Assembly (NCBI RefSeq): GCF_003063295.1
Contig: NZ_MUXF01000014.1
Coordinates: 1 to 64,000, forward strand
DNA: 64,000 nt
Direction of reading: 5' to 3'
Source: Arcobacter lacus
Lineage (GTDB): Bacteria > Campylobacterota > Campylobacteria > Campylobacterales > Arcobacteraceae
This document shows positions 6,764 to 49,754 of this stretch, in pieces. Position 1 is the first letter of the stretch; the number at the start of each line of letters is the position of its first letter. Made by a program: the position numbers and the translations under genes. Below the pieces are notes generated by a model, which saw nothing but the letters and a program-made list of their open reading frames with translations, had not been told where the DNA came from and searched no databases.

Positions 6764-7945
6764 TTAACTTCTATAATCTGCATTTATTTCAACATATTTG
6801 TAGCCTAAATCACAACCATATGCTGTAAATTTTCCATCACCTAAACCAATGTCACAAATAATTTTATATTTGTCTTTTTTTAACACTTCAAAAGCCTTTG
6901 CTTCTATTGCTGCATCAAAACAAATTTCACCTTTATTAAAAACAATTACATCATTATATGAAATTACAAGTTTTTCTTCATCACAATCAATTCTTGAAGC
7001 TCCAATAGTTGAAGCAATTCTTCCAAAATTTGGATCTTCTCCAAAAAGTGCAGTTTTCACTAAAAGTGAATTAGATAAAGCTTTAGCAGCAATTTCAGCT
7101 TGTTTATCATCTTTTGCATTTATAACTTCAAATGCAGCCACTTTTTTAGCACCTTCACCATCTGCAACCATTAACATCGCCATATCATGCATAACCAGTC
7201 TTAAAACTTCTTTGAAAGCTTCTTTGTCATAAGCATTTGATTTTCCATTTGCTAAAACCATAACTGTATCATTTGTTGAAGTATCTCCATCAACTGAAAT
7301 TGCATTAAAAGTTGTCTCTTTATTTATATTTAAAGCCTCTTTTATATCTTCATAAGGAGCAGCAGCATCTGTACAAATAAAACAAAGCATAGTTGCTAAA
7401 TTTGGATTTATCATTCCTGCACCTTTTGCAACTGCACCTATTTTAAATGAAGTTCCATTTTCAAGTTTCACTTCATACATACAAGTTTTAGCATACGCAT
7501 CTGTTGTCATAATTGCTTTTGATAAGTTTTCACCATTTTTAGCTGTTAAATCAAATTTTTTTGCCCCTGCTATTAATTTTTCAATTGGCAATGGATTTCC
7601 AATAACACCTGTGCTACTCATAACTGGATTAATCAAATCAAAATCAAGTTGAGAAAACAAAGTATTGATTGACTCTATTCCTTTTCTTCCTGTTAATGCA
7701 TTTGCATTTTTTGAATTTATTAAAACAAAATTTGTTTTAAAATTTTCTCCATATTGTAAAAAATGTTTTAAAGGAGCTGCTTGAAATCTATTTTCTGTAA
7801 AAACCGCTGCAACGGTACAAGCCTCTTTTGTATAAATAAATCCTAAATCATTATTTCCATTTGGTTTAAGACCTGCATGGATTCCATCACAATAAAATCC
7901 ATCAATTTGATCAATATAACCTTTTATAGGCATAATAGTAAACAT
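6764..7945 (-). CDS. argJ: Bifunctional ornithine acetyltransferase / N-acetylglutamate synthase
   Basis: A 393-residue ArgJ, which recycles the acetyl group from N-acetylornithine to glutamate in arginine synthesis. It is made as a precursor that cuts itself between Ala184 and Thr185 in the motif NPNLATMLCF, giving two chains, with Thr185 as the nucleophile. The length and the GAVAKGAGMI segment before the cut are typical. Translation may start at Met1 or Met5. It begins 1 bp after the stop of the K+ channel gene, so the two are probably co-transcribed. Confidence 0.95.
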   Translation of the reverse strand: MFTIMPIKGYIDQIDGFYCDGIHAGLKPNGNNDLGFIYTKEACTVAAVFTENRFQAAPLKHFLQYGENFKTNFVLINSKNANALTGRKGIESINTLFSQLDFDLINPVMSSTGVIGNPLPIEKLIAGAKKFDLTAKNGENLSKAIMTTDAYAKTCMYEVKLENGTSFKIGAVAKGAGMINPNLATMLCFICTDAAAPYEDIKEALNINKETTFNAISVDGDTSTNDTVMVLANGKSNAYDKEAFKEVLRLVMHDMAMLMVADGEGAKKVAAFEVINAKDDKQAEIAAKALSNSLLVKTALFGEDPNFGRIASTIGASRIDCDEEKLVISYNDVIVFNKGEICFDAAIEAKAFEVLKKDKYKIICDIGLGDGKFTAYGCDLGYKYVEINADYRS

Positions 7946-7946
7946 T

Positions 7947-9074
7947 TTATATATCCTCTGGTTGTTTATTTAAAGTTAAAATTCTTTTTGCCCTTATTAT
8001 TCCACTTTGAGAACCAACTAATAAAAGCTTACTATTTGCATTTATTGATGTTTCACCTTTTGGCATTTGAATAAATCGTCCATTAGCTTCAGTTATTCCA
8101 ATCACTGAAACTTTTAATGTATCTCTTAAACGTAAATCTTTTAATTCTCTTCCTACAACCCAAGATGTCTCTTTTACAAAAACTTCTTCCATTGCAATTG
8201 GAGTATCAATTTTATATAAAAATTCATCAAGAATATTTTCCATATCAGGACGAATAGCCATTGCACTTACTCTTTTTGCCATAAGTGATGGAGTTGCTAC
8301 AACTTTATCAGCACCTAATTTTTTTAATCTTATTTTTTCATTTAATGTTTCAGCATTTGAAATAATTAAAAAAGGAGCTCTTCCTAACTCTTTTTCATAA
8401 AGTCTAACTGATGCAATAAGTGTAATATTATCTGAAATATTTTTTGATAAAGATATGGCACCTTTTGCAGAGCTTAGGTGAGCTTTTAAAAAGGCTGTCT
8501 CTTTATATGGTTCTTCTTTTATAAAATAAGGATAACCATTTTCTCTAGCAATATCTTCAATATTATCACTTGGATCAACTACAACAAAAGGAATATGATT
8601 TTCTCTAAATTGTCTTGCTAATTGTGCCGTATATTCATTGTGATAACAAATCACAAAGTGTCTTCTTAGTCTTGCTATTTTATAAAGCATTTTTCTCTCC
8701 TTTAATAGCTCTCTTAAATTACCATTCATAAAAACATCTATTACAATACCGACTGCAAACATTGTACTTGCAAATCCAGCATACATTAGAAATGTAGTAA
8801 ATACAATCGTTTCATTTTTGAAATTTGATTCATTTAAAGCGCCAAATCCTGTATTTGTAAGAGTATACGCTGTTTGAAAGATAGCCTGCATGATAGTATA
8901 ATTTTCAAAATAAACATAAGCTAATGTTCCAATTATCATCAGTAATTGAATAATTATTAAGGGAAATCTTAGAGGTTTTAATTTTGAATAAATAATTGGG
9001 TTTAAATCATATAAAGGCTTAGCCGCTTTTATTTCCCAACCAATAGTTTTTTTGAATTTTATGAAGATACTCAT
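7947..9074 (-). CDS. Potassium channel with a cytoplasmic RCK/TrkA-type domain
   Basis: A 375-residue two-helix channel: TM1 about 38-56, pore loop 60-80, TM2 about 91-114, then an RCK region (about 139-260) and a TrkA-C-like end (about 290-370). The expected filter TVGYG is replaced by TNTGFG (73-78). The nucleotide-binding loop of the RCK domain lacks the usual glycines (VICYHNEYTA at 141-150), so it may not bind NAD in the normal way. No ribosome-binding site is visible: the ATG sits in a hairpin with the rpmB stop codon. H. pylori KchA is a likely relative. Confidence 0.8.
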   Translation of the reverse strand: MSIFIKFKKTIGWEIKAAKPLYDLNPIIYSKLKPLRFPLIIIQLLMIIGTLAYVYFENYTIMQAIFQTAYTLTNTGFGALNESNFKNETIVFTTFLMYAGFASTMFAVGIVIDVFMNGNLRELLKERKMLYKIARLRRHFVICYHNEYTAQLARQFRENHIPFVVVDPSDNIEDIARENGYPYFIKEEPYKETAFLKAHLSSAKGAISLSKNISDNITLIASVRLYEKELGRAPFLIISNAETLNEKIRLKKLGADKVVATPSLMAKRVSAMAIRPDMENILDEFLYKIDTPIAMEEVFVKETSWVVGRELKDLRLRDTLKVSVIGITEANGRFIQMPKGETSINANSKLLLVGSQSGIIRAKRILTLNKQPEDI

Positions 9075-9105
9075 GAAAGCACTTTATCTAGTGCTTCTTA
9101 TGAGT
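9069..9105 (-). promoter_or_regulatory. Stem-loop joining the rpmB stop codon and the K+ channel start codon
   Basis: On the minus strand ACTCAT...AAGCACT pairs with AGTGCTT...ATGAGT: an inner stem of about 8 bp and an outer stem of 6 bp, split by a small mismatch, with an AGATAA loop. The rpmB TAA lies in the 5' arm and the channel ATG in the 3' arm. There is no T run, so it is not a typical terminator. Confidence 0.55.
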
Positions 9106-9286
9106 GTTTTTTAAGTGTTCTTAGCTCTTTAGCAGAAATTCTTAATTTAGTAGTAGTTCCATCTTCAAGTGTAACTCTAACTGTTCTAATATTTGGTAAG
9201 AATCTTCTTCTTGTTCTATTTTTAGCGTGACTTACGTTGTTACCAACCATTGGTCCTTTTCCAGAAATTGCACATTTTCTTGACAT
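9098..9286 (-). CDS. rpmB: 50S ribosomal protein L28
   Basis: A 62-residue L28, a standard component of the large ribosomal subunit. It opens with [20 protein letters not shown], the typical family start, followed by [10 protein letters not shown]. Ribosome-binding site AAGGAAG precedes the ATG. Transcription probably starts from the -10 box at 9324-9329. The K+ channel follows after 23 bp. Confidence 0.97.
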
Positions 9287-9323
9287 TTGTCTTCCTTTTT
9301 TTTATAGTGAAAAATATTTGCGT

Positions 9324-9329
9324 ATTCTA
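9324..9329 (-). promoter_or_regulatory. -10 box of rpmB
   Basis: GATAGAAT on the minus strand fits the Campylobacterota -10 pattern (g-n-TA-n-AAT). It lies 37 nt before the rpmB ATG, and AAGGAAG lies between them. Confidence 0.5.
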
Positions 9330-9351
9330 TCCTAAATTTCTTAAGTTAAAT

Positions 9352-10218
9352 TTAAATATTTAATATTTCTTGATTAAATCTATTTAAATTATTTTCTATA
9401 CTACACTCTTTTGCTATTTCATAATTTTGTTTTTTAATATTTTTTAACTCTTTTTCATCCGATAATATAGCATCAATTTTAAATGCAATAGTTGAGTCAG
9501 TTGGGCTACTCATTGAAGCAAAAACATCAATCACCTCTTTTGCATCATTTTTAACACTTAAAAAAACAACACATTCACAAAACATAGCTTTTAATATATT
9601 TGTAGCAAAAGATTTATTATGAGTTGGAAGTAAAAATATATCACTTACTAAAAATAATTCATCAAAATTTTTATAATCATCAATAAGTATAATTTTTTCT
9701 TCAAGTTTTTTATATTTTGGAAGTGAAAATTGTAAACTTCCTATTTGTCTTTTATCACCTGCAATTATTATTTTAAAATTTGAATAATTTAGATTTGAAC
9801 AAATATCTAAAAACTCTTTAATTCCAGACGTTTTAAAATTTTTTGCTGTAAAAAATATAAGTTTTGTATCAAAATCTATATTGAATTTTTTATAAAAATC
9901 TATTTTTATTTTATTTTCATTTTCAATATTTATATTTATTGAAGGATAGATAACTTCAATTTTTTCTGATGAAATTTTTAATTCTTCTAATATATTATTT
10001 TTAGTAGAAAATGAATTTACTATTGTAATTTTTGAATTTTTTATATTTAAAATAGTTTTTTCATCTAAAGAACCAGTATGAAAATAGACATCTGCATATC
10101 TTTTTTTGCTAAAAAGTTTTTTCAAAAAATTTTTATTTTTTATAACTTCAATATTCTCTTGTTTTTTTAACTCGTTTATTAAAACATTTGTTGTTTTATA
10201 TGAGATTGTAATTTTCAT
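9352..10218 (-). CDS. Glycosyltransferase, family 4-like, short
   Basis: A 288-residue GT-B fold protein. The C-terminal half has the family features: FFTAKNFKTSGIKEFLDIC (about 136-154), IIAGDKRQ, DIFLLPTHNKSF and the KAMFCECVVFLS segment. It is about 70 residues shorter than usual and its N-terminal acceptor domain is small. The E-x7-E motif is weak, since the second part reads AMFCE rather than EAMxxG. Donor and acceptor unknown. It is the outermost gene of the LPS locus, read divergently from gmhB. Its -10 box TATAAT is at 10251-10256. Confidence 0.7.
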   Translation of the reverse strand: MKITISYKTTNVLINELKKQENIEVIKNKNFLKKLFSKKRYADVYFHTGSLDEKTILNIKNSKITIVNSFSTKNNILEELKISSEKIEVIYPSININIENENKIKIDFYKKFNIDFDTKLIFFTAKNFKTSGIKEFLDICSNLNYSNFKIIIAGDKRQIGSLQFSLPKYKKLEEKIILIDDYKNFDELFLVSDIFLLPTHNKSFATNILKAMFCECVVFLSVKNDAKEVIDVFASMSSPTDSTIAFKIDAILSDEKELKNIKKQNYEIAKECSIENNLNRFNQEILNI

Positions 10219-10250
10219 CTAAATACTTTCTTAACTTTAAAATAACTCTT

Positions 10251-10278
10251 ATTATAGTTAAAACTGCTTTATGATAAT
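10251..10278. promoter_or_regulatory. Divergent promoter region between the glycosyltransferase and gmhB
   Basis: TATAAT on the minus strand (10251-10256) points at the glycosyltransferase. On the plus strand TATGATAAT (10270-10278) fits an extended -10 box pointing at gmhB. The plus-strand box overlaps the only upstream ATG (10271), which argues that this ATG is promoter and not start codon. Confidence 0.5.
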
Positions 10279-10312
10279 ATTTAATAAACAATACATACGA
10301 AAAGGATTTTTT

Positions 10313-10834
10313 ATTCAAACAAATAAAAAGAAAATAATCTATCTTGATAGAGATGGAGTTATAAACAAAGATTTTGGATATGTTTATGAAATTGATAAAT
10401 TTGAGTTTATAAGTGGAGTTCTTGAAGCTTGTAAACATTTTATAAATTTAGGATATGAAATTGTTGTAGTTACAAATCAATCTGGAATTGGAAGAAATTA
10501 CTATACAAAAGAGGATTTTATAAAACTTACAAATTGGATGAAAAGTGAGTTTAAAAAAAATGGTATTGATATCTTAAATGTATATTTTTGCCCTCATGCT
10601 CCTGAAGAAAACTGCAGTTGTAGAAAACCACAAATTGGTATGATTACACAATCATTAAACGATTTTGATATAGATTTACAAAAATCTTGGCTAATTGGAG
10701 ATAAAATGAGTGATATTCAAACTGCAATTAGTGCAAATATTCCAAATAAAATATTAATTTCAAAAGAGAAAGAGGATAAAGTTTTACATGTAGTTGAAAC
10801 TTTATTTGATACAATAAACATAATAAAACAGTAA
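10313..10834 (+). CDS. gmhB: D-glycero-beta-D-manno-heptose 1,7-bisphosphate 7-phosphatase
   Basis: A HAD-superfamily phosphatase that removes the C7 phosphate of heptose 1,7-bisphosphate in ADP-heptose synthesis. It has the HAD nucleophile motif YLDRDGVIN, VTNQSG, and the zinc-loop cysteines in CPHAPEENCSCRKP, typical of GmhB. Start choice: an ATG at 10271 would add 14 residues but has no ribosome-binding site and overlaps a -10 box. AAAAGGA at 10300-10306 is followed after 6 nt by in-frame ATT (10313), which also puts the N-terminus where the family usually starts. I therefore prefer ATT (173 residues), and 10271 remains possible (187 residues). First gene of gmhB-hldD-hldE-gmhA. Confidence 0.9.
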   Translation: MQTNKKKIIYLDRDGVINKDFGYVYEIDKFEFISGVLEACKHFINLGYEIVVVTNQSGIGRNYYTKEDFIKLTNWMKSEFKKNGIDILNVYFCPHAPEENCSCRKPQIGMITQSLNDFDIDLQKSWLIGDKMSDIQTAISANIPNKILISKEKEDKVLHVVETLFDTINIIKQ

Positions 10835-10842
10835 GGCTTATA

Positions 10843-11850
10843 ATGAAATATACAGATATAAATTTTAATAAAAAAACAATACTAATTACTGGTGGAGCTG
10901 GTTTTATAGGCTCTAGTTTGGCTTTTTATTTTCAAAATAATTACCCAAAATCAAAAATTGTAGTTTTAGATAGTTTTAGAAGTGGTGAAACTTTTAGTAA
11001 TGGAAACTTAAAAAGTTTTGGTCACTTTAAAAATCTTTTAGGTTTTAAAGGCATTGTTATAAGTGGTGATATAAACGATAAAAGTGTTTTAAAATCTTTA
11101 GAAAAGAATTATAAATTTGACTATATTTTTCATCAAGCTGCTATTTCAGATACAACTGTACAAGAACAAGATTTAATGATAAAAACAAATGTAAATGCTT
11201 ATGAAGATCTATTAAAAATTGCAATAAAACATAAAGCAAATATGATTTATGCAAGTAGTGCAGCAACTTATGGAGATAGTGATAGATTTGAAGTTGGTTA
11301 TGAACAGCCAAATAATGCTTATGGTTTTAGTAAAGTTATGATGGATAATGTGACTTATGAGTACTTAAAAAAAGATTTAGATATTTCAATAGTTGGATTA
11401 AAATATTTTAATGTTTATGGACCAAGAGAGTTTTTTAAAAATAAAACTGCATCAATGGTAGTTCAATTTGGACATCAAATACTAAAAGGACTTACTCCAA
11501 AACTTTTTGAAGGAAGTGATAAAATATTAAGAGACTTTATCTATATTGAAGATATTATTCAAGCAAATATAAAAGCTTGTAATCCTAAAAAATCTGGTGT
11601 TTATAATGTTGGAACAGGAAATGCTAGAAGTTTTGAAGATATAGTAAATATCTTGCAAAAAGAGTTACAAATAAATAATGGTAAAGAGTATATTCCAAAT
11701 CCTTATGTTGGTTCTTACCAATTTTTTACACAAGCAAATATAGAAACTACAACGAAGTATTTAGGATATGAACCAAAATTTAGTTTAGAAGATGGAATAA
11801 AAGCTTATATTCCTGAAATTTTAAAACTATTTAAAGAAGAAGTAAAATAG
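10843..11850 (+). CDS. hldD: ADP-L-glycero-D-manno-heptose 6-epimerase
   Basis: A 335-residue short-chain dehydrogenase/epimerase that converts ADP-D,D-heptose to ADP-L,D-heptose, the LPS inner-core donor. NADP-binding motif GGAGFIGS lies at 17-24 and the catalytic YxxxK pair is in YGFSK (about 157-161). LKYFNVYGPREF is typical of HldD. It lies 8 bp after gmhB and directly abuts hldE, in the order of the pathway operon. Confidence 0.96.
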   Translation: MKYTDINFNKKTILITGGAGFIGSSLAFYFQNNYPKSKIVVLDSFRSGETFSNGNLKSFGHFKNLLGFKGIVISGDINDKSVLKSLEKNYKFDYIFHQAAISDTTVQEQDLMIKTNVNAYEDLLKIAIKHKANMIYASSAATYGDSDRFEVGYEQPNNAYGFSKVMMDNVTYEYLKKDLDISIVGLKYFNVYGPREFFKNKTASMVVQFGHQILKGLTPKLFEGSDKILRDFIYIEDIIQANIKACNPKKSGVYNVGTGNARSFEDIVNILQKELQINNGKEYIPNPYVGSYQFFTQANIETTTKYLGYEPKFSLEDGIKAYIPEILKLFKEEVK

Positions 11851-13287
11851 ATGAAAATGTTGAGTAAAAAACCAAATATTTTAGTAATTGGTGATTTGAT
11901 GATAGATCACTATTTATGGGGAAGTTGTGATAGAATTTCTCCTGAAGCGCCAGTTCAAGTTGTAAATGTAAAAAAAGAGAGTTCTGTTTTAGGTGGAGCT
12001 GGAAATGTTATAAATAATCTTTTTACTCTTGGTGCAACTGTTGATGTAATAAGTGTAATTGGAGATGATAATGTTGCAAATGAACTAAAAAGTTTATTAG
12101 AAAAAATCAAAATATCAACTTCAAATTTAATAGTTGAAAATAATAGAAAAACATCTAAAAAAAGCCGACTTATAGCTTCACAGCAACAAGTTTTAAGATA
12201 TGATATGGAAAGTATTGATGATATAAATGAAGAAAGTCATAAGAAAATCATCTCAAATCTTGAAAAAAATATTAAAAAATATAGTTCAATTATACTTTCT
12301 GATTATGGGAAAGGCGTGTTAACTACAAAATTAACGCAAGATATTATAAATATTGCAAATAAAAATGGTGTAAAAGTTTTAGTTGATCCAAAAGGAAAAG
12401 ATTATAGTAAATATAAAGGTTCATATACTCTTACTCCAAATAAAAAAGAGGCTCAAGAAGCTACAAATATAGATATAAAAGATGAAAATTCTTTAATAAA
12501 TGCTTTAAAAAATTTAAAAGAAAAATGTGATTTAGAAGTATCTCTTATAACTTTAAGTGAACAAGGAATTGCTATTTTTGATGAAAATCTTACTATAAAA
12601 CCAACTGTTGCTAGAGAAGTTTATGATGTAACAGGAGCTGGTGATACAGTAATTGCTTCTATTGCTTTTGCTTTAGGAAATGATTTAAATATAAATGAAG
12701 CTGTAAGTTTTGCAAATTTAGCAGCTGGCGTTGTTGTAGGAAAACTTGGAAGTGCAACGACAACTTTAGATGAAATTTATGAATATGAATCAAGTTTACA
12801 TAAATCAAATTCAAACTCTCATATAAAAACTTTTGAAGAGATTGAAAAATTAGCATCAAAACTTCATAGTCTTGGTAAAAAAATAGTTTTCACAAATGGT
12901 TGTTTTGACATACTTCATGTAGGGCATGTAAAATACCTAGAAGAAGCAAGAAGTTATGGTGATGTTTTAATATTAGGTTTAAACGCTGATAGCAGTGTAA
13001 AAAAACTAAAAGGTGATTCAAGACCAATAAATAATCAAGATGATAGAGCATATATTTTAGCTTCACTTGAAAGTGTAGATTATGTAGTTATTTTTGAAGA
13101 AGAAACTCCTTATGAGTTAATTAAATTAATTAAACCACATGTTTTAGTAAAAGGTGGAGATTATGAAGGTAAGGATGTTGTTGGTCAAGATATAGCTGAT
13201 GAATTAAAATTAGTAAAATTTGTAGATGGGAAAAGTACAACAAATACGATAAAAAGGATACAAGAAAATGAAAAGTGCAATAATTAA
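11851..13287 (+). CDS. hldE: Bifunctional heptose 7-phosphate kinase / heptose 1-phosphate adenylyltransferase
   Basis: A 478-residue fusion enzyme. Residues 1 to about 315 form a PfkB-type kinase (GGAGNV near the N-terminus, DVTGAGDT at about 259-266) that phosphorylates heptose 7-phosphate at C1. Residues from about 340 form a nucleotidyltransferase ([10 protein letters not shown] at about 351-360) that adds AMP. The full-length fusion matches the E. coli-type enzyme. Translation starts directly at the hldD stop (Met1 or Met3), and its last 20 bp overlap gmhA. Confidence 0.97.
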
Positions 13288-13834
13288 AGAGTTTTTAGCA
13301 CATCAAGAAACAATAGCAAAAGTTATAGAAACTATGCAAGGACCTTTAGAAGAAGCTTCAAAAATTGCAGTTGAAACTTTAAAAAATGGGAATAAAATCT
13401 TACTTTGTGGAAATGGAGGAAGTGCAGCAGATGCACAACATTTTGCGGCAGAACTAACAGGAAGATATAAAACAGAAAGACGAGGATTACCAGGAATTGC
13501 TCTTACAACTGATACAAGCGCACTAACAGCTATTGGAAATGACTATGGATATGATAGAGTTTTTGATAGACAAGTTGAAGCTTTAGCTTCTAAAGGTGAT
13601 TTACTTATTGGTATTTCTACTTCAGGGAATAGTACTAATGTAATAAATGCACTAAAAGTAGCAAAGGATTTGGGTTGTAAAACTATTGGTTTAACAGGAC
13701 GTGACGGAGGAAAAATGAACGAACTTTGTGATATAAATTTAGTTGTTCCTTCAAATGATACACCAAGAATACAAGAGATGCATATACTTTTTGAACACAC
13801 GATTTGTCAAATTATTGATAATGAATTAAGTTAA
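13268..13834 (+). CDS. gmhA: Sedoheptulose 7-phosphate isomerase
   Basis: A 188-residue SIS-domain enzyme making heptose 7-phosphate from sedoheptulose 7-phosphate, the first step of ADP-heptose synthesis. [16 protein letters not shown] and GISTSGNS are the sugar-phosphate-binding loops typical of GmhA. It completes the pathway in one plus-strand operon. It overlaps hldE by 20 bp upstream, and its 3' end overlaps the convergent waaF gene by 9 bp. Confidence 0.96.
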
Positions 13835-14767
13835 ATTTTCACAAACTTTTAAAACATCAGCAGCTGTAATATTTTTCATACACTTATGATGTTTTAATGG
13901 ACAAACTCTTTTCATACAAGGTGCACAATCCAGATTTTTTGTCACAATTTCTCCATTTGGATTATTCCATTGATTTGTTTCAGTAAATTTTGTAGGACCA
14001 AAGATAGCTATTGTTTTCACTTTATAAGCAGCTGCAATATGCATAGGACCACTATCATTTGTAATAAATAAATCAAGCCCAGCAATTCTTTCAATAAGTT
14101 CAGGAATTGTGGTTTTACCAGCTAAATTTTGATAATTTGTTATTCCTTTTGAAACTAATTCATTTTCTATATCCTTTGCAATATTAGTTTCTGCTGGTCC
14201 TCCAAAAATTACGATATCATATTTTTTTGACATTTCAATTGCAATTTTTGCAAACTCTTCTGGGTACCATCTTTTTGCACTTCCATAAGTGGCACCTGGA
14301 TTTATTCCTAAAGTTGGTTTACCGTAATTAAAAGGTTTAAAATAAAGTTTTAAATCCCCTACTTCATTTTGCAAATTTAAAACTTTATTTATAAAGTCGT
14401 TATATCTAATACATAAATGTATCTCTTTTTTTGTAAGACGTCTATAATTGAATTTTTTCTTTGCTTTTATAAAAAACATCATAAATTTAGAAGAGATACT
14501 TCTTCTAAATGAAATTGCTAAATCAACTTTTCCGATACTTTTTGCTAAAGAAATAAGATTTTTATATCTATTTCCACTCTTTTTTGTATCATCAACTATT
14601 ACTCTTTTTATATTTGGATAACCTTGAAAAGCTTGAGTTGAAACAAAAGAACCTAAAAGTGTAATTTGAGCATCGGGATATGTTTTTATCAAATTTTCTA
14701 TTGCTGGTGTTGCCATAATAGCATCTCCCAACCAAGAAGGTATTTCTATAAATATTTCTTTAATCAT
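13826..14767 (-). CDS. waaF: ADP-heptose:LPS heptosyltransferase II-type enzyme
   Basis: A 313-residue GT9 enzyme. It has the start motif [20 protein letters not shown] (7-26), the donor-binding segment [17 protein letters not shown], and [13 protein letters not shown] near the C-terminus. WaaF adds the second heptose of the inner core. Two cysteine clusters near the end ([12 protein letters not shown]) are usual for this group. It lies beside the heptose-synthesis operon, as in Campylobacter LOS loci. It overlaps the next minus-strand gene (14760) by 8 bp. Confidence 0.9.
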
Positions 14768-15821
14768 TTTTTTTAATCATCTCTTTAAAAGCATAAAATT
14801 GAGGATATTTTATAATTTCTCCTCCTCTATTATCAACCAATCCATATCCTGGAGCAATTAGTTGATGCCAATAAACTCTTTTAATCTTTTTACTTTTTTT
14901 TGCTATTTCAAAATACTCTAACATATATTTTGTATATTCTTCATTTGAAACACACTCTTTTTCACTTGTTGGAGCATAAGGAGCTGTATTTTTTATAGGC
15001 CAATTAACCTCAGTTATATATATTTCATTTTTACATTTTGGACTTAATTTTACTAAAGAAAAAAGTAAATCAATTTTATTTTTAAAATCAAAAAAAAGAT
15101 ATTGTTTGTTTTTTGCACTTCCTCGTCTATCTACATAAAGTAAAGAGCTAACTATATCATATTTTATATCTTCAAAATTAAACATCGCTCTAACATTATA
15201 GTAGTATTCAAAGTCAATAACACTAGGTCCTAAAAGTTTTATATTTGGAAATTTTTCATCTTTTAAATTTTGAGCTACTTTATAGAAATTTACATACTCT
15301 TTTACGCTAAAAAATCCCCATTTTGCACGATTTATTGTAGTTGCTATTTGAAATTCGCTTACAAAACTGCCAAATTTTATAAAAATTAGTTCCAAATTTT
15401 CTTTTAAAAGTTTGTGATTTTCTATATTTTCTCTATCTTGCATAATGTTTAATAGAATATTTTTTTTTGATGTTTTATTAAAACTTTGGGCAAAATCAAC
15501 GTAAGAATCAATATTTTTTATATCACATAATGGCAGTCTAATTATTAAGTTTTTTACTTGAAGTTCTTCTACTAATTCAACTTGACAATTGCCTTTATCA
15601 AGATTCACTCCTAAACCATAAAAATCGTCATTTGAAAATTTAACTTTTCCCTTAAAAAATTTCATAAAAAGCATTGCAATAGGCAGAATAAAAAAAGAAC
15701 TGATAAAAAGCTTTATAAAATCTTTTAAATGCTTTTTTCGCATAGCTTTCTTGTAATTTTTATCTTTAATAACTTGAGGTTGATCAGAGTAATTATCCCA
15801 AATAAAAAGATCTTTATTCAC
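14760..15821 (-). CDS. Membrane-anchored glycoside-hydrolase-like protein of the LPS locus
   Basis: A 353-residue protein of unknown function. A basic N-terminus is followed by one hydrophobic segment (about 37-58), so the rest is probably periplasmic. The body looks like a TIM-barrel glycosidase: FYGLGVNLD at the start, KLLGPSVIDFEYYY in the middle, and an IYITEVNWP strand end whose Glu sits where a catalytic nucleophile would, then a YWHQLIAPGYGLVD strand. It overlaps waaF by 8 bp and the third heptosyltransferase gene by 8 bp, so it is co-translated with inner-core assembly genes. It could trim or transfer sugars, but the family assignment is inferred from motifs only. Confidence 0.6.
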   Translation of the reverse strand: MNKDLFIWDNYSDQPQVIKDKNYKKAMRKKHLKDFIKLFISSFFILPIAMLFMKFFKGKVKFSNDDFYGLGVNLDKGNCQVELVEELQVKNLIIRLPLCDIKNIDSYVDFAQSFNKTSKKNILLNIMQDRENIENHKLLKENLELIFIKFGSFVSEFQIATTINRAKWGFFSVKEYVNFYKVAQNLKDEKFPNIKLLGPSVIDFEYYYNVRAMFNFEDIKYDIVSSLLYVDRRGSAKNKQYLFFDFKNKIDLLFSLVKLSPKCKNEIYITEVNWPIKNTAPYAPTSEKECVSNEEYTKYMLEYFEIAKKSKKIKRVYWHQLIAPGYGLVDNRGGEIIKYPQFYAFKEMIKKND

Positions 15822-45861: not shown

Positions 45862-47814
45862 TTAAAAGCTTTCCCAATCATCATTTTTAGATTTTGTTGA
45901 AACTTCTTTTATCTCTTTTTTTGATGTAGTTTTTTCAACTTTTTCTATTTGTTTTGTTTTTTTTGTTGCTCTTTTTTCAATTTCTTTCGCTTTTACCTTA
46001 TCTTTACCAGTAAACTCTTTCTCATCTGCATCACTTACTATTAGTTTTGATATTTCATCTGTTACTATTGCAATATCATGCGTTTGGCTTGCTACCATTG
46101 CATTTTGTTGTGTTTGTTGATCCAATTGATTTACTGCATCATTTATTTGTTCTATTCCAAGCAACTGTTCTTTTGAAGCATTTTGTATATCTGAAATTAA
46201 ATTTATTGTTTGTGAGATATTTTGATTTAACTCTTTATACCCTTCAATCATATTATTGGCTATTTCTTTCCCTTCATCTGCTTTTATTGTTGCATTTTCT
46301 ACTATTGTTTTTATCTCTCTTGCTGCTTCCGCACTTCTACTTGCTAGGTTTCGCACCTCTTGAGCAACAACAGCAAATCCTTTTCCTGCTTCACCTGCAG
46401 TTGCAGCTTCAACAGCAGCATTGAGTGAAAGAATATTTGTTTGAAATGCTATTTGATCAATTACACTTATTGCTTCATTTATCAAATTAACTTGATTATT
46501 TATTTCATCCATTGCAGTTGTTGTTTGATTTGCTAGATTCTCACCTTGATTTGCAGAAGTTGTAACATTTGCAGATAACTTAGACATTTGAGCAATACTT
46601 TCTGTATTATTTCTTATATTTGAAGTTATCTCTTCAAGTGCAGCTGCTGTCTCTTCTAAAGATGCGGCTGCTTCATTTGAACTTAAGTTTAGTTTATCAA
46701 CATTTACCAAAAGCATATTTGAGCTTTTATCCAAAGTTAATCCATTTGTTTTATTTTCTACTAGCATTTCTGTTATTGAATCACCTAAACTATTTACTCC
46801 ACTTGCTAATTTCAATAAATGTTCTTTTAGATTTTTAGTTGATATCTTATTTAAGTAATTATAATTAGAGTATTGTTCCAAGATATTTAATACATTTTCT
46901 ATATTATTTTCTAGATTGTCTGCCATTTTATTCAATACATTTTTTAGTTGAGTTAAGGCTGGATTTGATACGTCTATATTCAATCTTTGGCATAAATCAC
47001 CTTGTTCAAACTCTCCTAAAACAGCTATTGTTTCATCTATTAGCTTTCTATCTTCTTCAATACCTTTTTGCGTTTTTACAATATTTTCATTTACAAGTTT
47101 TGCCATTTCTCCAAATTCATCTTTTGAAGCCATTTCTATTAATCTTGCATCACTTCGTTCTCTATTTAAATATGAGAAAAATGATAATAATCCCTCTTTA
47201 AATTTTTCTAAAGAATTCACTATATTACTTGAAATAAGTACCGATATTAGTATAAATATTATTATTGCTATAACTCCTAAAATTCCTAAATCTCTATCCA
47301 AAGTTTTATAAGCTTCTTCTCTTAAAATTATTGCATTGTTATTTATATCTTGTATTTTATTCTCTATTTCTAAACCAATTTCTGCCATTTTTGAAGATAT
47401 TTTTATTAACTCTTCTGATTCAAAACCAGTTGTGATACTTTTTACTTTTTCTTTTGATAAAGAATCAAAAGCTGTTATGTAGTTCTTTACAAGAGCCAAT
47501 ATATCATCACATAAATCCCTATTTTCTTTCAAAGAAAAAGTTGATTTAGCTTGAGAAACATCTTCAATTAATTTTTGAAAATCGCTCAAAACTTTTTTAC
47601 TATTTTCTTGCGTTGAACTTCTTAAATATTGATAAACAGAAATTCTTCCTTTTAAATTTTGTTGTATAAACTCTTCTGTTGAAATTGCAGCATTATTTCT
47701 TGCTGCTGCCATATCACTATAGTATTTGTATACAAACCCAGAACCTATTACTATTAAGATAAATAGTGTAGGAAATAAAAACAATTTTTTTCTTGTGTTA
47801 AGATTTTTTAACAT
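45862..47814 (-). CDS. Methyl-accepting chemotaxis protein with a CheR-tether-like C-terminus
   Basis: A 650-residue chemoreceptor: TM1 about 12-29, a periplasmic helical domain to about 175, TM2 about 178-200, a HAMP region, then the long cytoplasmic coiled coil. The hairpin tip [20 protein letters not shown] is intact. A charged Lys/Glu-rich linker (about 590-640) ends in DWESF, which fits the xWxxF pentapeptide that tethers CheR/CheB in E. coli receptors. Ligand unknown. Ribosome-binding site AAAAGGA. A short perfect repeat AAAGCTT/AAGCTTT spans the stop codon and may be a weak terminator. Confidence 0.93.
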
Positions 47815-47829
47815 TGTGCGTCCTTTTTA

Positions 47830-48006
47830 TTACTTGTTTTTTTGCTTTTTGGAATTTTCGATAGCTCTTCTTATTTCATGTAAATCAAATAAAATATCTT
47901 TTAAGAGTCTTTGGGAGGAAATATCTTCTTCTTTCTTTTTATATTTGTTGCATTCTACTTCAATATGCTTTATACTTTTAATTAATAAGTTATAAATTTT
48001 ATTCAT
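47830..48006 (-). CDS. Small 58-residue hypothetical protein upstream of the chemoreceptor
   Basis: ATG at 48006 follows AAGGAAATATA, a good ribosome-binding site, and the frame ends at TAA (47830-47832), 15 bp before the chemoreceptor start. The product is hydrophilic and Lys/Glu-rich (starts MNKIYNLLIKSIKHIEVE, ends KKQKNK), predicted helical, with no signal or membrane segment. I recognise no family. Position suggests co-transcription with the chemoreceptor. Confidence 0.6.
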   Translation of the reverse strand: MNKIYNLLIKSIKHIEVECNKYKKKEEDISSQRLLKDILFDLHEIRRAIENSKKQKNK

Positions 48007-48077
48007 TATATTTCCTTAAATAATATAAAATATTCACATAAGTAATAAAATTATTTTTTATTATTTCAACAAGTTAT

Positions 48078-48113
48078 TATCTTATCTTATCTTATCTTTC
48101 TATTAATTAGCCA
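48078..48113. repeat. 36-bp direct repeat, copy 1 (four TATCT units plus tail)
   Basis: Four tandem TATCT pentamers followed by TTCTATTAATTAGCCA. It matches the copy at 48193 in 35 of 36 positions (T instead of C in the tail). Confidence 0.9.
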
Positions 48114-48192
48114 ACATAATTCTTCATTTTTTTTTAGTAAATTAAAATATGAATAAAACAAAAAAATTTATTTCATTTTTTAATCAATGGAG

Positions 48193-48228
48193 TATCTTAT
48201 CTTATCTTATCTTTCTATTAATCAGCCA
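48193..48228. repeat. 36-bp direct repeat, copy 2 (four TATCT units plus tail)
   Basis: Four tandem TATCT pentamers followed by TTCTATTAATCAGCCA, exactly 115 bp from copy 1. The sequence between and around the copies is not repeated. Confidence 0.9.
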
Positions 48229-48329
48229 CTATATATCTTGATATTTAATTAATAATAAATATAAGTTTCGTTAGATATATTTATTCTATATAGTTATATA
48301 TTAAAATAAAAATAAATAATAATTATAAA

Positions 48330-49754
48330 CTAGTACCCTAAAATCTCTTTTACCACTTTTTCATGATTATTTTCGTTACTATTTTTATTATTTTCAGCAA
48401 TAAAATCACTTTTATTATTTTTTATAGCACTTAAAGAGTCTTGTAAATATTTGTCTTCAAGTTTTTTTAGTTCACTTAATTGTTCTCTTATATATGTAAT
48501 GTCTTTTGATTTAGGAATCATATATGGGGTTACTATTATGACTAAGTTATTCTTTTTATTCATTTTTGAATCATTTTTAAATAGTTCTCCAAAAAGAGGA
48601 ATATCTCCTAAAACTGGAACCTTTTGTTCTATAGTTTCATTCTTATTTTCTATTAAACCTCCTATTATTACACTTTCCCCATTATTTAAAATAGCTGCTG
48701 TTTTTATCTCTTTTTTTAAAGTATCAGGATTTTGTCCAGCTGAAACAGAAGTTGATTTTACACCTTCTAATAAAGTATTTATTTCCAAAGTCAATTTTGA
48801 ATCACTTGAAATTCTTGGTTTTACTTTAAGAGTTAGTCCTATATCTTCTCTTTCATAATTTGTTCTTTGTAATCCACCATCAGTTAAAGTACTAGAAATT
48901 TCAACTGAAATTTTTTCTCCTACATATATAGAACTCTCTTTATTATCTATTGCCAAAATTGATGGTTCAGAAACTATATCTAAAGCACCATTTTGTTGAA
49001 GTAAGTTTAAACTGGCTCCCAAAGCAAGTCCTGATTTAATATTTAAGTCACTTACTTTTATTCCCAAAGTATCAACTGCTTCTTTTATTGCACTTGAACC
49101 ACCATTTAAATTTGAAGAAATTGCATTTATTCCATCACTTCTTACACTTGTATTTATAATTCCATAAGAAATTCCTATTTTATTAACAAGTTCATTATTT
49201 ACTTCTATAATTTTAGCTTGAACATAAACTTGAGCTTTTTCTTTATCAAGTTCTTGTATCAAATCTTTTATCTGTTTTAATTCATTTTTTGATGCAATAA
49301 CTACTAATGAGTTAGATTCTAAATCCAAAGAAACAAAAGGTTTTGTTGGTTTATTAATATATTTTTTATTTACAACATCATCTAAAATTTTTATAATATT
49401 TGCACCATCAACATTTTTTAAACCTATAACTTCTGTAAACTGTTCTTCTTCTTTGATTATTTCTATTTTTTTTACTTTTAATACACCATTTTCTTCAACT
49501 AAAAAATACCCTTTTTCTTTTAGTGTTGTTTCTAAAATATCAAATAAATTCTCTTTTGTAATTTTTTGTGTTGGAATATAATCAACTTTTTCATTTATGA
49601 TTTGTGTTACTAGAATATTTCTTTTAGTTATTTTTGAGGTTATTTTTATTAAATCATCAACTTTTATATCTTTAAAATTGATATTTATTTCATCATTTGA
49701 ATATAAATTAAGAACATAAAAAATAAGTAATAAAACTATAAATATTTTTTTCAT
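48330..49754 (-). CDS. Isolated secretin (GspD/PilQ superfamily)
   Basis: A 474-residue outer-membrane secretin: signal peptide about 1-20 (MKKIFIVLLLIFYVLNLYS), N-terminal N0-like domain (about 24-95), a ring-building N1-type domain (about 105-175) and the secretin barrel. The barrel has VYVQAKIIEVNNEL at its start and VPVLGDIPLFGELFK near its end, then ends in an Asn/Lys-rich tail. It is shorter than GspD because fewer N-domains are present. No ATPase, pseudopilin or pilotin gene is adjacent, so the partner system must be elsewhere. Confidence 0.9.
   Translation of the reverse strand: MKKIFIVLLLIFYVLNLYSNDEININFKDIKVDDLIKITSKITKRNILVTQIINEKVDYIPTQKITKENLFDILETTLKEKGYFLVEENGVLKVKKIEIIKEEEQFTEVIGLKNVDGANIIKILDDVVNKKYINKPTKPFVSLDLESNSLVVIASKNELKQIKDLIQELDKEKAQVYVQAKIIEVNNELVNKIGISYGIINTSVRSDGINAISSNLNGGSSAIKEAVDTLGIKVSDLNIKSGLALGASLNLLQQNGALDIVSEPSILAIDNKESSIYVGEKISVEISSTLTDGGLQRTNYEREDIGLTLKVKPRISSDSKLTLEINTLLEGVKSTSVSAGQNPDTLKKEIKTAAILNNGESVIIGGLIENKNETIEQKVPVLGDIPLFGELFKNDSKMNKKNNLVIIVTPYMIPKSKDITYIREQLSELKKLEDKYLQDSLSAIKNNKSDFIAENNKNSNENNHEKVVKEILGY

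Follow-up and report, generated by a model that had tools for sequence, protein, structure and literature searches.

Two near-identical 36-bp repeats stand upstream of a chemoreceptor operon in Arcobacter lacus, within the 64,000-nt stretch of DNA analysed here (the window; contig NZ_MUXF01000014.1), and raise the question of what such an element does in front of sensory genes and which protein might read it. An earlier, sequence-only reading had described two copies of four TATCT units followed by the common 16-bp tail TTCTATTAAT(T/C)AGCCA, at 48078-48113 and 48193-48228, differing at a single position and spaced by 115 bp. This description was confirmed. The mismatch is T at 48108 and C at 48223, the start-to-start distance is 115 bp, and on the minus-strand reading the pair lies upstream of a small gene and a chemoreceptor operon. 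A 25-mer from the element, with up to three mismatches allowed, occurs twice in the window, both times exactly, and in none of 100 dinucleotide-preserving shuffles. The bare repeat is less special: three TATCT units give four overlapping matches, and 6 of 100 shuffles reach this count when two mismatches are allowed.

Form and distribution of the element

The meaningful strand of the element is the minus strand, TTGGCTAATTAATAGAAAGATAAGATAAGATAAGATAAT, directed toward the small gene and the chemoreceptor. Read in this direction (TGGCTRATTAATAGAAAGATAAGATAAGATAAGAT), each copy takes the form TGG-N5-TTAAT-N-G-A-(AAGAT)4. The features of the locus are given below, with bit scores from R1, a sequence model built from 28 sites, which therefore match it by construction.

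48194..48229, minus strand: distal copy of the element, TGG-N5-TTAAT-A-G-A-(AAGAT)4; R1 38.8 bits
48079..48114, minus strand: proximal copy of the element; R1 47.8 bits; its end lies 72 nt before the ATG of the small gene
48038..48255, minus strand: diverged 115-bp tandem duplication bearing both copies (48038-48140 and 48153-48255, 76% identical)
47830..48006, minus strand: small gene, 58 aa, ..LLKDILFDLHEIRR..; first gene behind the element
45862..47814, minus strand: chemoreceptor (MCP), 650 aa, MCPsignal at E 5.8e-39; second gene behind the element

The search for further copies that had been suggested for this element returned a third one in the same genome, a match at C19:244248-244302 (site C19:244261-244294), which precedes a response-regulator/GGDEF gene and then a hybrid kinase. 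The genome thus holds three sites, the window pair and the one on C19. A DNA search of this genome and 59 relatives gave matches at E<=0.001 in 35 of the 60 genomes. AT-rich stretches account for many of these, and below 1e-6 the matches were confined to the same genus. The strict pattern, with up to three mismatches, was found in 9 of 31 genus genomes, and the reversed pattern, used as a control, had no match in any of the 31. In these nine genomes R1 recovered 35 sites, scoring between 29.5 and 51.4 bits, and among the matches listed the next score was 18.4 bits, against 29.5 for the weakest site. The sites are unevenly spread: 12 in G006, seven in G002, four each in G005 and G027, three in the window's own genome (G000), two in G029, and one each in G011, G013 and G018. 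The last of these genomes is Arcobacter cloacae, whose site lies on plasmid pACLO.

Weak R1 matches in G004, G012, G014, G020 and G257 (15.6-18.8 bits) hold at most two consecutive AAGAT units and were rejected as copies. Across 15 genomes of the family and two of other families, R1 gave at E<=0.01, besides the sites in G333 and G401 described below, only the 18.8-bit match in G257, where AAGAT units do not form a run. Bare AAGAT runs were sought in 84,980 species, a set that may lack the window's genome and records close to it, and 28 stretches were returned. Four from A. vitoriensis scored 48-54 on the site matrix and the other 24 at most 22.5; four viral AAGAT stretches scored at most 23.4. 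The DNA of 47800-48400 had no match in a plasmid search.

Shared gene context, the test proposed with the sequence-only reading, was borne out, since all 35 genus copies lie before sensory genes. Chemoreceptor operons follow 31 of them, with the receptor reached directly or via a small gene or a PAS gene; three precede response-regulator/GGDEF genes and one a histidine kinase (23 ORFs of site operons, two of them from G333 and G401, were scanned with Pfam, and the rest were named by resemblance). None of the 35 stands before a flagellar gene. The idea of a general feature of chemoreceptor promoters was rejected: the own genome has 20 MCP matches against three sites, with one MCP operon carrying a site, which makes the site-bearing genes a subset (for the MCP start at C8:51725, absence of a site rests on the genome-wide searches). 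At G002:1362182 the receptor behind the site is split into two ORFs. On contig L046 of G006, positions 7298-15600, a unit of about 4.2 kb is tandemly repeated, in the order site, 689-aa sCache receptor, site, 132-aa PAS gene, 457/453-aa receptor. On pACLO (189 kb; L253, L214), a GIY-YIG gene, the site, an MCP gene and a GGDEF/EAL gene occur together.

Members of the small gene's family occur at 18 places in 11 of the 31 genus genomes, with the motif ..LKDIL..LHEIRR.. and lengths of 53-69 aa in nine aligned members. Neither Pfam nor NCBIfam matches the window's protein at E<=0.1, and PHROGs and PADLOC returned one weak match (E 0.0041) of unknown function. Genes of this family often come first before a chemoreceptor, and some copies lack a site, for example C1:114128-114301 in the own genome.

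Conservation within the element was counted over 31 unique sites, the G018 site being in a shifted register. TGG is kept in 28, GG in 29, and T7, A9, T10 and G12 in 30 each; A-(AAGAT)4 is nearly invariant, the upstream DNA is A-rich, and no conserved TATAAT adjoins the site. The consensus of sigma-54 promoters is TGGCAC-N5-TTGC (-24/-12). Like such promoters, the element has GG and G at the -24/-12 spacing (GG together with G12 in 29 of 31 sites). Unlike them, it lacks the usual GC at -12 (C13 in 3 of 31; CAC not conserved) and carries (AAGAT)4. The distance from the site end to the next start codon called by the script runs from 11 to 187 nt and is at most 48 nt in 25 of 34 cases.

Three familiar explanations were set aside. 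Rfam had no match up to E 5 over 47800-48500 on either strand, and a known structured RNA was rejected. A sigma-54 promoter proper was rejected on the lack of any Sigma54_DBD family match in the own genome and on the reported loss of RpoN from all Arcobacter species (PMC9321776, in excerpt); RpoN itself was not found in the own genome by that family search, which also misses the GIY-YIG protein described below. For FliA (sigma-28), whose -10 is resembled by GATAA, the genome offers one Sigma70_r3 match, in a 633-aa frame, and this candidate too was dismissed.

The sequence-only reading had offered two functions for the pair, sites on the same DNA face for a looping regulator or a repeat whose length varies by slippage, and we give either next to no credence. 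In favour of looping, 115 bp is near eleven helical turns, and the sister species G005 preserves the pair with a lag of 114. This syntenic pair is the only other close pair among the 35 sites, and looping is not needed since single copies are the rule. The spacing has another source as well. Outside the 36 bp, 64% of 67 positions are identical at lag 115; the 129 other lags average 38% and reach 51% at most. The window pair is an old, diverged 115-bp tandem duplication of the site, and since 115 bp is the period of that duplication, a looping pair is not supported. Slippage fares no better: among 34 sites, 28 have exactly four unbroken AAGAT units, across species too, four have three, one has five and one has two, and the unit number therefore looks fixed. 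What stands of the earlier proposal is the regulator binding site, upheld by site-like behaviour and by place before a chemoreceptor operon; the same-face looping does not. The window site was duplicated in tandem, and a single copy should suffice.

A protein that accompanies the site

Listing the genes that adjoin the sites brought out a recurrent divergent gene for a protein of about 360 aa. In a genus search with a profile of seven such proteins, 9 of 31 genomes proved to encode it, and these coincide exactly with the nine that have the site; three of the 22 genomes without it are under 90% complete. If the genomes were independent, this agreement would arise by chance once in C(31,9), or 5e-8, a figure that ignores kinship and thus overstates independence.

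A search of the class (397 genomes) extended this association. Matches occurred in 58 genomes, eight of which carry the protein: six of the nine, together with G333 and G401, which belong to other genera and hold the only further near-full-length relatives. The remaining matches comprise 47 with the DNA-binding region only, two with GIY-YIG only, and a weak one with eight stops in G247. Among 22 of the 47 DNA-binding-only loci that were examined, 19 have ORFs that end in the RpoN box and are RpoN itself, two have another ORF and one has none. G333 and G401 were found by protein alone, and the prediction that followed held, for in each a site adjoins the gene and precedes an MCP gene. The G333 site lies 45 bp from the gene match and scores 40.4 bits on R1; the G401 site lies 64 bp away and scores 22.0. 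The latter is degenerate, its matrix score of 19.9 being within reach of bare AAGAT runs elsewhere, and its case therefore rests on place beside the gene and not on score. Absence of the protein from other genomes of the family covers nine of the 13 scanned with R1, with the weak match in G247 and with G032, G033 and G035 left out.

Altogether 13 gene copies are known from these searches, 11 in the genus and one each in G333 and G401. Eleven adjoin a site, ten of them divergently with 31-128 bp between and one in tandem (G401, 64 bp before the site). Two of the copies are damaged: in G029 an intact site adjoins a decayed remnant that has six stops, and in G333 the gene beside the site is frameshifted (L226, L251). 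In G000, where the gene lies at C1:114846-115922, and in G005, there is no nearby site; the gene is near a member of the window's small-gene family, an arrangement that resembles what a cassette since lost would leave behind. The protein was absent from the viral and phage collections searched, and a plasmid search gave one match, on pACLO of A. cloacae. Selection on the gene is purifying, with dN/dS of 0.09 to 0.29 in eight pairs. Between G000 and G005, dS is 0.60 for the MCP gene and 0.61 for the small gene (window 45862-48006), and 0.78 for the GIY-YIG gene (C1:114846-115922), against 0.07-0.18 for three other window genes. Such high values for receptor, small gene and protein gene point to exchange between lineages by recombination or transfer of a cassette.

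The N-terminal part of the protein has no known relatives; it is followed by a sigma-54-type DNA-binding part (HTH and RpoN box) and, at the C-terminus, by a GIY-YIG domain. Pfam PF01541 (GIY-YIG) matches 11 of 11 proteins, and the Y, Y, R, E and N residues, like the YIG motif, are invariant in all 11 aligned sequences. The protein thereby shows the GIY and YIG motifs, central Arg and C-terminal Glu by which PMC1564403 (in excerpt) defines the GIY-YIG superfamily. All PADLOC and PHROGs matches of the protein are weak and fall in this same region.

Homology of the middle third to the RpoN DNA-binding domain shows at the level of the family and is weak per protein. Aligned by hhalign, columns 102-240 match RpoN 273-409 (13 RpoN sequences) at E 7e-6 with a score of 49.7, and none of 60 column-shuffled decoys scores above 21.6. 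Among PDB sequences up to E 1, only the RpoN domains 2o8k (E 0.014) and 2ahq (E 0.026) were matched. Pfam Sigma54_DBD exceeds its cut-off in two of seven proteins and reaches E<=0.01 in four of 11, which by elimination do not include the own-genome protein. A full-length RpoN HMM with default filters found 0 of 11; a C-terminal RpoN HMM run without filters found five at E<=0.01 and nine at E<=10. Beyond this part the resemblance ends, with no match of columns 1-99 to RpoN (Prob 0.4%) and likewise none of the GIY-YIG part, and the core-binding family is absent among the four Pfam families matched at E<=0.01 across the 11 proteins. The protein thus has the HTH and RpoN-box domain of a sigma-54 factor and lacks its core-RNAP-binding domain and region I. 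In G401 the RR of the RpoN box has become TV, and the site lacks TGG; joint change is expected if the two are in mutual contact, this being one case in a diverged protein. AlphaFold gave the A. vitoriensis protein, modelled alone, a mean pLDDT of 36.

Regulatory site or nuclease target

The analysis establishes the orientation of the sites and their place before sensory genes, their co-occurrence with the protein gene, and the adjacency of the two. As in a regulon, the sites stand before functionally related genes and are co-distributed with one protein. We consider it probable that each copy serves a sensory-gene regulon as a directional cis-regulatory site and is read by this protein of about 360 aa with its sigma-54-type DNA-binding and GIY-YIG domains; its presence in the same genomes as the site makes it the likely reader.

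In sigma-54, the RpoN box contacts -24 and the HTH contacts -12 (PMC7057263, in excerpt). By analogy, the RpoN box of the protein would bind TGG and its HTH would lie near TTAAT-N-G, with the N-terminal part toward the AAGAT repeats. Binding would control transcription of the downstream gene, by activation or repression, and probably also that of the protein's own divergent gene. As the core-binding part of sigma-54 has no match here, the protein is expected to be a regulator that works with the vegetative sigma factor and polymerase, not a sigma factor itself. Counted against this explanation are the relatedness of the genomes, the distance of the gene from any site in G000 and G005, the scarcity of the C of the -12 GC (3 of 31 sites), the degenerate site of G401, and the weak sigma-54 match per protein.

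A further such point concerns the GIY-YIG residues, for which a plain transcription factor would have no use. Their invariance, together with purifying selection, indicates that the whole protein matters, and a nicking or cutting role is for this reason a serious alternative. The most serious rival, which we hold to be unlikely, treats the protein as an active homing-like nuclease and the element as its target or as the boundary of a chemoreceptor cassette, with the gene riding along. Cuts or nicks at the element would lead to gene conversion and spread of element-plus-receptor cassettes, at the same low likelihood. Consistent with this are the residues invariant in 11 of 11, the gene adjoining a site in 11 of 13 copies (the G029 remnant and the frameshifted G333 copy included), the arrays of site-led receptor units in G006 with their repeated 4.2-kb unit, the exchange suggested by dS of 0.60-0.78 against 0.07-0.18, and the copy on the A. 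cloacae plasmid. However, a homing target is expected in genomes without the nuclease, and 0 of 22 such genus genomes have the site; G006 would expose 12 sites to an active enzyme; and the sites point at the starts of sensory genes of different kinds, 25 of 34 within 48 nt, much as promoters do.

The two roles may also be joined in one protein. In bacteria that lost sigma-54, its DNA-binding domain would have persisted on a nuclease scaffold, would read a new promoter class, (TGG-N5-TTAAT-N-G)(AAGAT)4, and would both regulate chemoreceptor genes and nick or cut to copy and shuffle them. We regard this as quite unlikely; if true, a single protein would couple expression and diversification of the sensory repertoire.

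Finally, the element could be the site of another regulator or sigma factor, for instance of the ECF type, and the GIY-YIG protein a mere linked neighbour. Seven ECF sigma/anti-sigma pairs are described for A. butzleri (PMC2147049, in excerpt), and the pairing of protein with site is itself deduced from sequence. An ECF study gives no promoter motif in its available part (PMC3445524). Such a regulator would need the same distribution, nine and nine of 31 genomes plus two cases in other genera, and the protein already has a domain of the kind that reads GG-N10-G sites. We judge this explanation very unlikely and return to the GIY-YIG protein as the probable reader.

Comparison with known systems

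The protein resembles sigma-54 (RpoN) in an HTH and RpoN box homologous over about 130 columns, and differs from it in lacking the core-binding domain and in being fused to GIY-YIG. It also recalls I-TevI-type GIY-YIG homing endonucleases, which share the conserved Tyr, Arg, Glu and Asn, a joined DNA-binding part, and a gene that adjoins the likely site. In I-TevI, however, the GIY-YIG domain is N-terminal (PMC1564403, same excerpt), whereas here it is C-terminal, and unlike homing targets the sites are numerous and do not occur in any of the 22 genus genomes that lack the gene. Odn of phage ICP1 offers a parallel as a nuclease that acquired a DNA-binding domain resembling one of another system and is thereby aimed at the sites of that system, although Odn cleaves the replication origin of a phage satellite and the sites described here precede chromosomal sensory genes (PMC8263062, in part). 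Plant EFFECTOR OF TRANSCRIPTION proteins likewise contain GIY-YIG, and their loss alters gene expression; they differ in being plant-specific and in having zinc- and DNA-binding ET repeats (PMC6585611, in excerpt). A possible precedent for a GIY-YIG transcription factor was discarded because the GIY-YIG genes in the available text are targets (PMC10688885). Among the titles and abstract openings listed for GIY-YIG with sigma-54/RpoN and with Arcobacter, in a library that leaves out most subscription journals and bioRxiv preprints, none described such a fusion protein.

In C. jejuni and H. pylori RpoN acts as a flagellar regulator, and Arcobacter species are reported to be without RpoN, FlgRS and FliA, with flagellar genes under 'different and yet unknown regulators' (PMC9321776, same excerpt); for A. 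butzleri, RpoN and FliA are reported missing (PMC2147049, same excerpt). With 0 of 35 sites before a flagellar gene, the site and protein alone leave the flagellar question unanswered. They are a candidate system for controlling some of the chemosensory genes of bacteria that lack RpoN and, if this is true, a case in which the DNA-binding domain of a sigma factor has been reused without sigma function and joined to a nuclease.
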